Positions 51,892-64,000 of a stretch of 64,000 nt of DNA are shown piece after piece. The notes beneath the pieces are model-generated. The model made no database searches, had not been told where the DNA came from, and saw only the letters and a list, made by a program, of their open reading frames with translations. Position 1 is the stretch's first letter. Each line of letters begins with the position of its first letter. The translations under genes and the position numbers were made by a program. This stretch comes from Sphaerochaeta associata (GTDB taxonomy: Bacteria > Spirochaetota > Spirochaetia > Sphaerochaetales > Sphaerochaetaceae), in contig NZ_CP094929.1 of the NCBI RefSeq assembly GCF_022869165.1, forward strand, positions 1,116,001 to 1,180,000, written 5' to 3'.

Positions 51892-51934
51892 GCAAGTCTC
51901 CTATAAATTGGATAGTTCCCTTAGGAAAAAAGAA

Positions 51935-51955
51935 ACGGGGAGCAATGCTCCCCGT
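51935..51955 (-). terminator. Hairpin with T-run between binding-protein and permease genes
   Basis: The nine-pair stem ACGGGGAGC/GCTCCCCGT is followed on the minus strand by TTTCTTTTTT. A strong terminator inside the operon; read-through would set lower permease and ATPase levels. Confidence 0.75.
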
Positions 51956-51971
51956 CATCATACTGTTTTCC

Positions 51972-59073: not shown

Positions 59074-59925
59074 ATGTACGACAGGCTCTGCACCGATCTT
59101 TCTTCAGGTCATCCCGCCCAAGAGGTGCTGCAACAGTTCACCGATCGGCTGGATGCATTTCCCTTGCAGCGTTTGGATTGTCCGATGAACCGCTGTCTGC
59201 TTGTCACCGACAGGGCGGACAGCGTCGAGGAAGCTCAACGATTGGGCATGGGCTCGATGCTTGCCCACGGGCGGTTCGGGCTCGATTCTCTGTTGCCTCA
59301 TCTGTCCTGGGTGGATTCGACCATCCCCGATCCCTGTTCGCTGTTCCTCTTTGATATGGGAAATGTCGTGGTGAAGAACATTACGATGCTCGACAAGATT
59401 GCCAAGCGCTGGAATCTCGATCGAGAGGAGTTTTTCACCGACTACCTGCACTATGAGTTCCCCCTCATGGATGGCACTTTTTCCAGCGCACAGTATTGGG
59501 CCCATGTGAAAGAGGTGTTTGGGACGGAGGTGGAAGGTGATCCTTTCTACGATGCCTTCGAGCCGGTTTTCAATGATGAGATCATCAGCTTGATTGCCAA
59601 GTTGAGAGCGGCAGGCAAGCGGGTGGTATGTGCCTCCAACACCATCGACCCTCATTGGAGGATACTCGATGCGATGGGAGCCCTCTCCTTGTTCGACGAG
59701 GTGTATGCATCACATCTGATGCGCACCACAAAACCCTCGAGGCATTTCTTTATGCAGATTCTTCAGAGTGAGGGGTGTCCCATCGAGCAAGCTTACTTTA
59801 TTGATGATCATGAACCGAACATCGAGCGGGCGCGAAGCTTCGGCCTGGCAAGCCTGCTCTACGCAGACAAAGGGGGAAGAGAGGCCTCCGAGCGGCTCTC
59901 TTCGGCCTTCTCCTTCGTGTTATAG
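59074..59925 (+). CDS. HAD phosphatase with a duplicated motif IV segment
   Basis: 283 residues. A HAD-IA core begins at residue 90: nucleophile FDMGNVVV (Asp94), Ser188, Lys220 and the acidic DD pair at 244-245 (FIDDHEPN). It resembles YihX-type alpha-glucose-1-phosphate phosphatases. The extra N-terminal 80 residues contain a segment (41-70) that aligns with the C-terminal motif IV region (239-268) but lacks one of its acidic residues. Co-transcribed with the sugar transporter, so it may act on an imported sugar phosphate. ATG at 59074 chosen over an in-frame TTG. Confidence 0.8.
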   Translation: MYDRLCTDLSSGHPAQEVLQQFTDRLDAFPLQRLDCPMNRCLLVTDRADSVEEAQRLGMGSMLAHGRFGLDSLLPHLSWVDSTIPDPCSLFLFDMGNVVVKNITMLDKIAKRWNLDREEFFTDYLHYEFPLMDGTFSSAQYWAHVKEVFGTEVEGDPFYDAFEPVFNDEIISLIAKLRAAGKRVVCASNTIDPHWRILDAMGALSLFDEVYASHLMRTTKPSRHFFMQILQSEGCPIEQAYFIDDHEPNIERARSFGLASLLYADKGGREASERLSSAFSFVL

Positions 59926-60687
59926 ACTGCCCAGCTCGTCGCGGAACTGCGTAGGGGTCTTGGTGGTGAAACGCTTGAAGATCTTGGCGAAGTAGCCGGG
60001 GGTGGGGAAGCCGCAACTGGTTGCGATCTCACCGATGTTCTTCTTCGGATCCTTCATGAGCTCCACCGATTTATTCACCCGCCACGCGTTCAGGTATTGG
60101 AGGAAGTTAAGTCCTGTCACTTCCTTGAACAGCCGCGAAAGATGACTCTCGGAGAGTTCAAGGTAGGAGGCAGCCTCCTGCAGGCCGACCGGGTTTGCAT
60201 AGTTGTCGGCGATGAAGGCGATTGTGGCATCGATGACATGGTTGTTCACGTTGCGCGGAAGGGCGATCAACTCGGCGGCGGTACTCGTTCCTTTTTTCAA
60301 TTGCTCGAAATCCTTGTCCTCTTCCTGGATTTTCTTGACCAGGTTGGCCAGCGTTTCTTCCAGCTCCTCGTCGTCGATGGGCTTGAGCAGGTAGTCGAAC
60401 ACACCCAGTCGGATGGCTTGTTTCATGTAGTTGAAATCGGTATGGCCGGTCAGGATGATGGCATGGTTGACCGGACAGTGGCTGAGCATGGTAAGCCCGT
60501 CCTGGGCGGGAAGGCGGATGTCGGTTATGACGATGTCCGGCTCGACACGTTTGATCAGTTGCTCCCCCTCCAGGCCGTCGGCGGCGGTTCCTGCCAATTT
60601 CAATCCCAACAGTTCCCAGCGGATCGAAGAGACTATTTCCTCACGGACGATTTGTTCGTCTTCTACAAATACCACACTATAGCTCAT
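59920..60687 (-). CDS. Response regulator with AraC-type output (YesN-like)
   Basis: 255 residues. The receiver domain (1-125) has the phosphoacceptor Asp56 in VITDIRLPAQDG and the DYLLKPIDDEE block with conserved Lys. The C-terminal 100 residues hold two AraC helix-turn-helix motifs (GLQEAASYLELSESHLSRLF and IGEIATSCGFPTPGYFAKIF). Shorter than Bacillus YesN. It follows the histidine kinase gene by three bases. It probably activates the adjacent sugar ABC operon. Confidence 0.9.
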   Translation of the reverse strand: MSYSVVFVEDEQIVREEIVSSIRWELLGLKLAGTAADGLEGEQLIKRVEPDIVITDIRLPAQDGLTMLSHCPVNHAIILTGHTDFNYMKQAIRLGVFDYLLKPIDDEELEETLANLVKKIQEEDKDFEQLKKGTSTAAELIALPRNVNNHVIDATIAFIADNYANPVGLQEAASYLELSESHLSRLFKEVTGLNFLQYLNAWRVNKSVELMKDPKKNIGEIATSCGFPTPGYFAKIFKRFTTKTPTQFRDELGSL

Positions 60688-60690
60688 AGC

Positions 60691-62457
60691 CTATTTCCTC
60701 TCTTTTGTTTCGTCCGGGAATGATATGTTCACCGTCGTACCTTCCCCGACCTTGCTGGTCAAGGAAAAAGTCATCTGCTTACCATAGGTAAGGAACAATC
60801 TTCTATATACATTGTATACACCAACGTGTGTCGAGTTGGCAAGTTCATCGAGGTTGTCCGGCAGCGTTCCTGGTGGAAATCCTATCCCGTTGTCCTCAAT
60901 GGTGATGAAAATCCGGCCTGAGAGCTTAACGACCCTGACCGATAGCTTCCACTCTCCGACTTTCGGTTCAAGGCCGTGGATGATGGCATTCTCCACCAGC
61001 GGCTGGATGATCAGCTTGGGTGTCTTGACGGAAGCGCAGCCGGGATCGAGGTAGGTCTGCACTTTCAGCTTGGAGCCGAAGCGCAGCCGTTGGATGGTCA
61101 GATAGGAGTCGATCAGGGCCATGCTCTGTTCGAGGGTGCACTCGCTTTCATGGTTGTCGATTGTCGATCGCAGCAGTTTCCCGAGCTTCACCGTAATGGT
61201 ATAGATGTCCTCTTCTCCATGCATTCGTGCAAGAGCCTTGATGGTGTTCAGTGTATTGAAGAGGAAGTGCGGGTTCATCTGGCTCTCAAGGGCCTTCCGT
61301 TCGGCCTCGCTGAGTTTCTCCTGCTCCTCACGGGTGAGCTCGAGCAGCCCTGCAATTTGTTGTACCATGATGTTGAATGAGTGTTCGAGCTGGGCGAACT
61401 CCCAGATTCGGCTCTTTACCGCCTTGGTCTGCAGATTGCCCTGTTCAACCTCTCCCATGCGATAGGCAAGGTTGCGGATCGGCCTGGCGATGGAACGGGA
61501 GAACAGGAAGGACAAGCCCATTGCCAGAAGGGTTCCTACCGCCATGGTAAGGCCGAATGCATAAAGCAGTCGGTCCAGGCTCTCCTGGAAGGGTGCTGCA
61601 CTGACGCTTCCCGCCAGATGCAACGTCGTGCCGTGTATCGGCGTGATGGAGACAATCGAAGTTCCTGTATGCATGGTCCTGCGTGAGTAGTCGCCTTTGA
61701 GCTGTGAAAGCGAAGGAAATTTGTCAAAGGTTCCGAAGCGTTCGGTGTGCACCAGGCTGGTAGCATAGAAGTCACGATTGTCGATCAGCAGTACATCGCC
61801 GAGCAATCGTTCGGTATTTACCAGGTTGCTGAGGGCTTCGGCATAGATGTCGATGACCAGGTATCCCAGGTTCGTACCCTCGCTGTCATAAATGCGTCTG
61901 AGGATAGAAGCAACCACCTGTCTTCCATTGTCGGCCATCCGATGGCCCCGGATGCTGATGATGCTGGCCGTCGGGGAGATGTTCGCATTCTGGCTGATGA
62001 TCGAGTTCATGTCCCAGTCGTTGCCGTGATAGCGCAAGTCATAGACATCGGGGAAGGTGTGGGTGCTGATGCGCACCCTTCCGGTATTGCTGACGATGTT
62101 TGCACTTGCAAGATAGGTGTCCCCGCGCATCACGCTGAACAACAGCTGGTAGAGGTCCCGGCTGATGGTGGAGTTAGCCTCCAGCCTGTCCTCTTCCATA
62201 ATGTGAACGATCAGAGGATTGGTTGAGAGCTGGTAGGCCTTATGCCGGTAGTCCTCTAAAACAGAGGATACTTTGTCAGCGTCTACGGCGACCAGATTCA
62301 TAGTCTGCTCGGTGAGGTACCTCTCTTGGTTTCTTCCACCGATTAGTGCATAATAGGCGGAAAAGAGGCCGAGCGGTACGATGAGGACGATCAGAAAGTA
62401 GATGAGTAGTCTTCCGAAGAGCGTTCGCTTTCTCCAGAAGTTGGGTTTGCTGTCCAT
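60691..62457 (-). CDS. Sensor histidine kinase, YesM family
   Basis: 588 residues. Two membrane spans (about 15-35 and 290-312) enclose an extracytoplasmic dCache-like sensor. A HAMP linker follows (to about 365), then the His_kinase domain with its phospho-His in NPHFLFNTLNTIKALAR and an HATPase with IIQPLVENAIIHGLEPK and ITIEDNGIGFPPG. It senses a ligand outside the membrane, often a sugar or oligosaccharide. Paired with the AraC-type response regulator and convergent with the sugar transporter. Confidence 0.92.
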   Translation of the reverse strand: MDSKPNFWRKRTLFGRLLIYFLIVLIVPLGLFSAYYALIGGRNQERYLTEQTMNLVAVDADKVSSVLEDYRHKAYQLSTNPLIVHIMEEDRLEANSTISRDLYQLLFSVMRGDTYLASANIVSNTGRVRISTHTFPDVYDLRYHGNDWDMNSIISQNANISPTASIISIRGHRMADNGRQVVASILRRIYDSEGTNLGYLVIDIYAEALSNLVNTERLLGDVLLIDNRDFYATSLVHTERFGTFDKFPSLSQLKGDYSRRTMHTGTSIVSITPIHGTTLHLAGSVSAAPFQESLDRLLYAFGLTMAVGTLLAMGLSFLFSRSIARPIRNLAYRMGEVEQGNLQTKAVKSRIWEFAQLEHSFNIMVQQIAGLLELTREEQEKLSEAERKALESQMNPHFLFNTLNTIKALARMHGEEDIYTITVKLGKLLRSTIDNHESECTLEQSMALIDSYLTIQRLRFGSKLKVQTYLDPGCASVKTPKLIIQPLVENAIIHGLEPKVGEWKLSVRVVKLSGRIFITIEDNGIGFPPGTLPDNLDELANSTHVGVYNVYRRLFLTYGKQMTFSLTSKVGEGTTVNISFPDETKERK

Positions 62458-62549
62458 GCCTGCAGTGTATCTGCAATAGGGTGGGAGAGCAATAACTTCG
62501 ACTTATAGGAATTTTTACTGCATAAACATACTGTTTTTTGTATAAAGGG

Positions 62550-62579
62550 TTGACAGAAATCCTAAAAGAGAGCTACAAA
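62550..62579 (+). promoter_or_regulatory. Promoter of the ilv operon
   Basis: Consensus TTGACA (62550-62555), 18-base spacer, TACAAA (62574-62579). A transcript from here would start near 62586 and include the leader peptide. The hairpin AACGGC/GCCGTT (62585-62601) would be at the very 5' end of the RNA. Confidence 0.65.
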
Positions 62580-62617
62580 CAAGAAACGGCCCATCGCCGT
62601 TCATTGAGGAGAGTATC

Positions 62618-62821
62618 GTGAACGCGTTCACCAAGCAGGTGCAGGCAATGCACCGGACAATTGAAAGGAAATGGAAGATGCAGGACTGCTCTCAGTTCTG
62701 TTTCGGCACACCTGATTCTTCGCATGCCGCTCTTTCCTTGCTTCTTGGACGCACCATCCTCCTCCCCCTCATCTCCCTCATTACCCTCCTCATTATCGTA
62801 GTAAGCCTAATTATTCTCTGA
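62618..62821 (+). CDS. Leader peptide of the ilv operon, rich in Leu, Ile and Val
   Basis: A 67-residue reading frame with a GTG start and a good GAGGAG site; an internal ATG at 62678 with AGGA would give a 47-residue form. The last 30 residues contain 12 Leu, 7 Ile and 2 Val, ending TLLIIVVSLIIL. This is the make-up of attenuator peptides that sense charged Leu, Ile and Val tRNA. Stable hairpins follow, and ilvN starts 111 bases after the stop. The hydrophobic end could instead be the single span of a small membrane protein, but its position argues for a leader. Confidence 0.7.
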   Translation: MNAFTKQVQAMHRTIERKWKMQDCSQFCFGTPDSSHAALSLLLGRTILLPLISLITLLIIVVSLIIL

Positions 62822-62886
62822 CCACGGCTGCAGAGTGAGATACCTGCATGGACCGTGGACGAAGAGCCCCCAATTGAAGCCTGGGG
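62822..62886 (+). promoter_or_regulatory. Hairpins between the leader peptide and ilvN
   Basis: Directly after the leader stop, CCACGG (62822-62827) pairs with CCGTGG (62853-62858), with TGCAG/CTGCA nested inside. A second, shorter hairpin is CCCCA (62868-62872) with TGGGG (62882-62886). No T-tract follows, so this is not an ordinary terminator. A Rho-dependent or translational form of attenuation is possible; the ilvN ribosome-binding site (AAGGAG) lies downstream. Confidence 0.5.
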
Positions 62887-62932
62887 AGCAATCGCTTATA
62901 CCCAAACACCATACGAAGGAGACAAACATCAC

Positions 62933-63463
62933 ATGAATAGTACAGAAAACCGCTACACACTGGCCATCCTGGTCAACAACCACCCCGGTGTCTTGATGCG
63001 TGTCGTCTCCCTGTTCTCCCGAAGAGGCTACAACATCGACAGCTTGTCGGTCGGAGAAACGGAGAACGAGGCGGTCAGCCGCATCACCATCGTAGTCAGC
63101 GGCGACCGTCCTGTTGTCGAGCAGATCAAGAAGCAGGTGGGCAAGCTCATCGATGTCAAGCGCGTGTATGAGATGACCCAGACGCGGAGCCTGCAGCGCG
63201 AGCTGGTCATGGTCAAGGTCTCCACCAAAAGTGAAAGCCGCTCGCAGGTGGTGGAGCTTGCCCAGATCTTCAAGGCAAAGATCATCGATGTCACCGCTTC
63301 CACGGTGTCCCTTGAGATGACCGGCAGCTTGGACAAGATTCAATCCTTCCTCGATCTTATGATGCCGTACGGTATTGTTGAGATGGCCAGGACGGGTATC
63401 ACGGCCCTCGAACGCGGCTCGCGGGCTCTCAGCTCGATCAGCTACAGCGAGGATGATGTCTAA
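62933..63463 (+). CDS. ilvN: Acetolactate synthase small (regulatory) subunit
   Basis: 176 residues. The N-terminal ACT domain is YTLAILVNNHPGVLMRVVSL with SRRGYNIDSLSVG; the second, C-terminal half includes RELVMVKV and GIVEMARTGITAL. The subunit gives valine feedback control to acetolactate synthase, the first common step of valine, leucine and isoleucine synthesis. The ATG at 62933 fits both homology and an AAGGAG site. The catalytic large subunit is not upstream, which is unusual; it may lie beyond the window. Confidence 0.93.
   Translation: MNSTENRYTLAILVNNHPGVLMRVVSLFSRRGYNIDSLSVGETENEAVSRITIVVSGDRPVVEQIKKQVGKLIDVKRVYEMTQTRSLQRELVMVKVSTKSESRSQVVELAQIFKAKIIDVTASTVSLEMTGSLDKIQSFLDLMMPYGIVEMARTGITALERGSRALSSISYSEDDV

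Positions 63464-63492: not shown

Positions 63493-64000
<508 letters not shown>

Follow-up and report, generated by a model that had tools for sequence, protein, structure and literature searches.

In Sphaerochaeta associata, an operon in which leucine, isoleucine and valine are all made is preceded by a leader peptide gene that very probably senses a shortage of these amino acids. The leader lies near the end of the window, by which we mean the whole stretch of 64,000 nucleotides that was analysed. Attenuation by the leader peptide is highly probable, and we consider it rather likely that the control is a ribosome-mediated transcription attenuation of the complete Leu/Ile/Val operon, with Rho the most likely agent of the stop step here. 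The leader, its regulatory codons, the position of the first hairpin behind it (H1) and the mutual exclusion of antiterminator and terminator in sister genera are well supported, while for Sphaerochaeta itself the stop step, most likely by Rho on the leader codons, is inferred. The features of the region, all on the forward strand, are as follows.

62550 to 62579, forward strand: promoter TTGACA-18 nt-TACAAA, hexamers and spacing identical, as the pattern given below, across 21 genus loci.
62585 to 62601, forward strand: 5' hairpin of the leader RNA, present in 17/17 distinct genus sequences.
62606 to 62611, forward strand: leader Shine-Dalgarno GAGGAG, conserved in the genus 7-8 nt 5' of a GTG or TTG.
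62618 to 62821, forward strand: leader ORF of 67 codons, C-terminal ...LLIIVVSLIIL and stop; a Leu/Ile/Val-rich end with adjacent H1 is found in 21 genus and 37 other-genus loci.
62720 to 62797, forward strand: rut-like stretch of putative function overlapping the leader codons (C minus G = 29, 28 YC, MFE -2.3 kcal/mol).
62729 to 62818, forward strand: regulatory codon run, 21/30 Leu/Ile/Val with CTA and GTA over-used, from codon counts.
62822 to 62858, forward strand: H1, homologous to the antiterminator of sister genera, with a CCACGG/CCGTGG outer stem and a covarying inner stem.
62866 to 62889, forward strand: H2, a second hairpin in the terminator position, without a U-tract.
62896 to 62903, forward strand: conserved TTATACCC (RTAYCC), 7-11 nt 3' of H2 both in Sphaerochaeta and in genus g121.
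62916 to 62921, forward strand: ilvN Shine-Dalgarno AAGGAG, from the sequence.
62933 to 63463, forward strand: ilvN, acetolactate synthase small subunit and first structural gene.
63523 to 64000, forward strand: ilvC, which runs past the window end and is followed by leuA, cimA, leuC, leuD, leuB, ilvD and ilvB.

The -35 hexamer (62550-62555) is exact and stands 18 nt before the -10 TACAAA (62574-62579); the pattern GGTTGACA-18-TA(C/A)AA(A/C) is present in all 21 genus loci. The original prediction had called this a consensus promoter, which is right for the -35 and is backed by the conservation in the genus, but the -10 lacks its final T, and for that reason a generic promoter scan makes no call here. 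The short 5' hairpin that had also been predicted is found, with an energy of -7.8 kcal/mol. Hairpins of -5 to -10 kcal/mol are kept across the genus despite sequence turnover, with arms such as ACGGC/GCCGT, ACAGC/GCTGT and CCTGCA/TGCAGG. Immediately 5' of the -35 (62519-62546 of the window), a sequence resembling TGCATAAACATACTG...TTTATGAATA is conserved in most genus loci and may be a repressor operator.

The leader starts with GTG at 62618 and stops with TGA at 62819-62821. A recount agrees with the earlier figure of 21 Leu, Ile or Val codons among the final 30. No other frame on either strand of the 64-kb window reaches 18 or more such codons in 30, and none of 20,000 first-order Markov randomisations of the leader region reaches 21. 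The frame is well initiated, as had been claimed, since both the Shine-Dalgarno sequence and the start are conserved in the genus. In the 21 Sphaerochaeta loci the leaders have 35-74 codons and begin with GTG or TTG behind a Shine-Dalgarno sequence; a translatable leader with its own Shine-Dalgarno sequence is kept at every locus, and the surroundings of the stop codon are nearly invariant. A comparison across genomes had been proposed, in which a variable hydrophobic end behind a conserved N-terminus would speak against a leader. The opposite pattern is seen: drift affects the middle and the length, and the Leu/Ile/Val end is conserved. In this window the leader is in frame with ilvN, which is due to chance, as the distances between leader and ilvN in relatives differ by non-multiples of three.

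The choice of codons is also unusual. CTA makes up 2% of the Leu codons in the genome versus 19% in the genus leaders, and GTA 19% versus 56% of the Val codons, while CTG and TTG together fall from 50% of the Leu codons in the genome to 7% in the leaders.

A hydrophobic end of this kind could, from its sequence, span a membrane, so the ORF might instead encode a small membrane protein. We regard this as extremely improbable, because the ORF varies from 18 to 76 codons, its N-terminal part is unconserved among genera, and its end consists of Leu, Ile and Val in rare codons with few other hydrophobic residues. Further, the position of H1 is tied to the leader stop codon, and the peptide has neither an NCBIfam match nor a significant Pfam match.

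The genes downstream fit a leader that carries codons for Leu, Ile and Val together. They form a nine-gene operon, ilvN-ilvC-leuA-cimA-leuC-leuD-leuB-ilvD-ilvB, which covers all three branched-chain amino acids, so that the end products are those encoded in the leader codon run. It had been noted that the operon begins with ilvN without the large subunit upstream. This is true for the upstream side, but ilvB is present about 9.4 kb downstream, as the final gene of the same cluster.

We compared 58 loci of the family Sphaerochaetaceae, i.e. 21 from Sphaerochaeta and 37 ilvN loci from ten other genera. The leader is found in all of them, and in nearly all CCACGG or a variant of it lies within a few nucleotides of the leader stop, with the arm altered in a few other-genus loci (e.g. 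L087, L098 and L104). A pattern search for the leader end together with H1 gives 15 matching stretches among about 85,000 species genomes; those with titles belong to Sphaerochaeta (including S. halotolerans 4-11) or to MAGs named only Sphaerochaetaceae, Spirochaetales or Spirochaetia. An RNA model built for the own genus gives one match per genome in 9 genomes, all from a single genus out of 112, Sphaerochaeta; hence this RNA is not duplicated ahead of other operons. Comparison with the Rfam families, T-box and others, gives no credible match for this region of the window or for five relatives.

H1 begins immediately 3' of the leader stop codon. In the genus its outer stem is invariant in sequence, whereas compensatory changes occur at 5/5 pairs of the inner stem, where 98% of the cells are paired versus 29-47% in slid controls.

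What H1 does is best seen in two sister genera, g19 (12 loci) and g22 (11 loci). Here the 3' arm of H1 also pairs downstream, and the resulting hairpin is followed by 7-8 T in 8 nt at 23/23 loci. The partner arm GCCCGTGG is common to H1 and to a second hairpin such as GCCCGUGG...CCACGGGC. Since the arm is shared with the hairpin that precedes the U-tract, H1 and the terminator are mutually exclusive and H1 is the antiterminator. In five other genera (g18, g115, g27, g23 and g122) a long alternative helix takes the place of H1, and no U-tract follows directly after it. The two sides of this helix coevolve, as cognate sides pair at -16.4 kcal/mol versus -12.4 kcal/mol for non-cognate ones (exact permutation p = 1.7e-4). 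A GTANCC similar to the RTAYCC of Sphaerochaeta and g121 lies within the coevolving helix of g18, g27 and g115. From sequence alone, the comparison establishes the attenuator logic predicted for the family.

Attenuation of ilvN by a leader may predate the Sphaerochaetaceae, as suggested by a spirochaete of another family (L022, G026:C7). There, a Leu/Ile/Val leader of 84 codons lies in the region from about 400 to 150 nt 5' of ilvN, and the gene is preceded by a hairpin that has a T7 run, but the CCACGG hairpin is absent.

The mechanism that we propose is as follows. When charged tRNAs are plentiful, the ribosome would reach the leader stop codon that adjoins H1, and its footprint would break H1; once the ribosome is released, transcription would end short of ilvN. 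Under a shortage of Leu, Ile or Val, the ribosome would stall in the codon run rich in rare CTA and GTA, H1 would form and the RNA polymerase would read on. In g19 and g22 the 5' arm of H1 would be covered by a ribosome on the stop codon, so that the terminator can form, while a stall further upstream would let H1 form. In Sphaerochaeta, Rho would load on the C-rich, G-poor leader codons after the ribosome has left, and a stalled ribosome would cover the Rho site.

It is at the stop step that the own genus differs. Both hairpins predicted before ilvN are present and conserved, and the predicted absence of a T-tract holds as well: in the window no 8 nt after H1 or H2 hold more than 4 T. Earlier-branching Sphaerochaeta have U-rich tails after H2 (L017, L018, L020 and L021, of which L020 and L021 keep TCCTTTTTT). 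No such tail follows H2 in the 13-sequence clade that holds the window, which has apparently lost the intrinsic terminator. By parsimony the U-tract trait has changed 6 times in the tree, with at least 4 of these changes forced by supported branches.

Nor do we find a mutually exclusive antiterminator and terminator in Sphaerochaeta. H2 is fully formed in the folds, whether or not the 15 nt starting at the stop codon are masked, and is independent of H1. A swap test for a longer alternative pairing of the H1 3' arm with the H2 region is negative (p = 0.88), and we dropped an extended terminator using that arm in the genus. The check by folding of alternative pairings that had been suggested therefore gives a divided answer, with exclusive folds in sister genera but non-competing H1 and H2 in Sphaerochaeta. 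This counts against the proposed mechanism, as it leaves the role of H1 in the own genus unaccounted for if Rho terminates. The 3' arm of H2 can also re-pair with TTATACCC into a weak hairpin, H3, of -3 to -5 kcal/mol, in 17/17 sequences; we gave H3 no part in the mechanism.

Features known from rut sites are a high C:G ratio, YC dinucleotides and little structure (PMC12121999). As far as features of the sequence go, the leader is rut-like, being C-rich, G-poor and weakly structured. The C-over-G bias and YC content of 62720-62797 are unmatched by 21,308 sampled 78-nt windows from both strands of the 64 kb. It should be kept in mind that rut features are low in information and that the C-richness is partly due to the encoding of Leu and Ile. 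However, the own leader also exceeds what is expected from its peptide and the codon usage of the genome (P = 0.001 for C minus G, P = 0.005 for YC). The synonymous bias of C over G has a mean z of 2.5 over the 13 U-less Sphaerochaeta leaders, with an excess in 13/13, while in the genera with U-tracts it is absent (g22, -0.1) or small (g19, 1.0). The G+C content does not explain the excess, because a sampled g22 genome has 0.56 and the own genome 0.52.

Leaders at loci that have lost the U-tract are long and C-rich, with a median of 67 codons vs 28 (Spearman -0.79, from 51 loci), but the groups compared are related to each other and provide only 4-5 independent contrasts; all contrasts with a length difference agree in direction, yet they are too few for significance. 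In some genera the start of the leader was assigned by Shine-Dalgarno score and could be misplaced by a few codons. At L071, L089 and L092 there are 6-7 T in 8 nt, though not behind the alternative hairpin; the tree analysis treats these three loci as having no U-tract, and the rank correlation does not. The genome encodes rho (PF07497 match, E 7.5e-29).

Taken together, the long leaders of U-less loci, the window-wide extreme of C over G and YC, and the synonymous excess favour Rho. That the Leu/Ile/Val codons double as a Rho-loading site, with Rho as the terminator in this genus, is a reading to which we would give even weight for and against. A wider and more tentative idea, which we hold to be somewhat less probable than that, is that attenuators of this family have exchanged an intrinsic U-tract terminator for Rho, with the codons lengthened and synonymously recoded as a Rho-loading site that the starving ribosome would mask directly.

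The same attenuator could also work without Rho, if H2 were a U-poor intrinsic terminator or a hairpin-dependent pause with TTATACCC placed where the active site of the polymerase would be. H2 does occupy the position of the relatives' terminator, where L020 and L021 retain TCCTTTTTT and L017 and L018 a U-rich tail, and RTAYCC follows H2 at 7-11 nt in the genus and in g121. The tail of the window, AATCGCTTATACCC, with its 4 T in 8 at most, speaks against this. At 67 stops of the own genome that look like operon ends, a hairpin followed at 7-11 nt by RTAYCC is not seen, and we dropped this combination as a general terminator of this genome. The synonymous excess of C over G would also be left unexplained, and we consider a stop at H2 itself possible but unlikely.

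It is improbable that the attenuator has simply decayed, with leader and H1 remaining, the terminator lost and the operon constitutive or controlled by its promoter. The lack of both a U-tract and an exclusive pairing in the own clade is what such decay would predict, but the U-less clade retains the outer stem of H1, the leader end, H2 and TTATACCC, with compensatory changes, and the synonymous bias of C over G has been gained, not lost.

Of the two outputs that the original prediction offered, Rho agrees with what the sequence shows; for the other, masking of the ilvN ribosome-binding site, there is no consistent change in Shine-Dalgarno accessibility. The minimum free energy fold of the own leader does pair UCUCU before the stop with the ilvN Shine-Dalgarno sequence, as translational attenuation would ask for, with the leader ribosome governing access to the binding site. 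However, L006 and L007 read CTATAA at this place, which breaks the pairing, and an occupied stop codon raises the accessibility in some species and lowers it in others (0.52 to 0.47 in the own leader). The relatives with U-tracts, moreover, plainly act on transcription. We therefore rejected sequestration of the site by the leader end and regard control at translation as quite improbable.

We had also considered a genome-wide loss of U-tract terminators in Sphaerochaeta and set it aside, as the gene-end detector is weak and finds 14% at E. coli control ends. On the reverse strand of the window, at 51934-51956, there is a strong canonical intrinsic terminator of 10 bp followed by TCTTTTTTCC, so U-tract terminators do occur in the own genome.

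The ilvL, ivbL and leuL attenuators of enterobacteria have runs of Leu, Ile and Val codons, with the rare CUA in leuL, and a four-segment layout of 1:2, 2:3 and 3:4 pairings. The Sphaerochaeta leader resembles them in its codon runs and, as in leuL, in the rare CUA. Unlike them, it has no four-segment layout, its antiterminator arm adjoins the stop codon, and its own genus lacks the intrinsic terminator. Of the predicted attenuator layout like that of enterobacterial ilv operons, the branched-chain leader attenuator is strongly supported by the family comparison, but the layout is a two-hairpin form and not the enterobacterial one. This form, with the antiterminator arm at the stop codon, is a simple one.

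The ilvB leaders of Mycobacterium, Corynebacterium and Streptomyces are similar in that an Ile/Val/Leu-rich leader ORF precedes an acetolactate synthase operon and termination is favoured when a ribosome sits at the stop codon (PMC1262725, PMC13236596, PMC11857589; see also PMC10272879). These belong to another phylum, with other sequences and gene order, and use U-tract terminators, which the own clade of Sphaerochaeta lacks; further, Sphaerochaeta has all Leu/Ile/Val genes in one operon. Control by Rho has been suggested for mycobacterial cys leaders (PMC1262725). As in tnaC and toiL-topAI (PMC12121999), the upstream ORF overlaps a rut-like region, where a stalled ribosome would block Rho. 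In contrast to tnaC, where the nascent peptide arrests on free Trp, the signal in Sphaerochaeta would be uncharged tRNA, and in contrast to toiL, which acts through the topAI ribosome-binding site, the rut would consist of the regulatory codons themselves.

Among spirochaetes, the Leptospira ilvB (WRC-14-1) motif is likewise a conserved RNA before a branched-chain gene (PMC8632094). It is a riboswitch candidate reported there only in Leptospira, and we set it apart by its description, not by sequence. In the open-licence literature we found no published description of a leader-peptide attenuator for any amino-acid operon in spirochaetes. Within the family, the sensor and the antiterminator persist alongside an intrinsic, a changed or a lost terminator, a natural series that makes an attenuator's change of termination mechanism approachable.

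Divergently from the leader, on the reverse strand at 59920-62457 of the window, lies a two-gene unit that from its ORFs would encode a 588-aa sensor-histidine-kinase-like protein, together with a 255-aa response regulator whose C-terminus is AraC-like.
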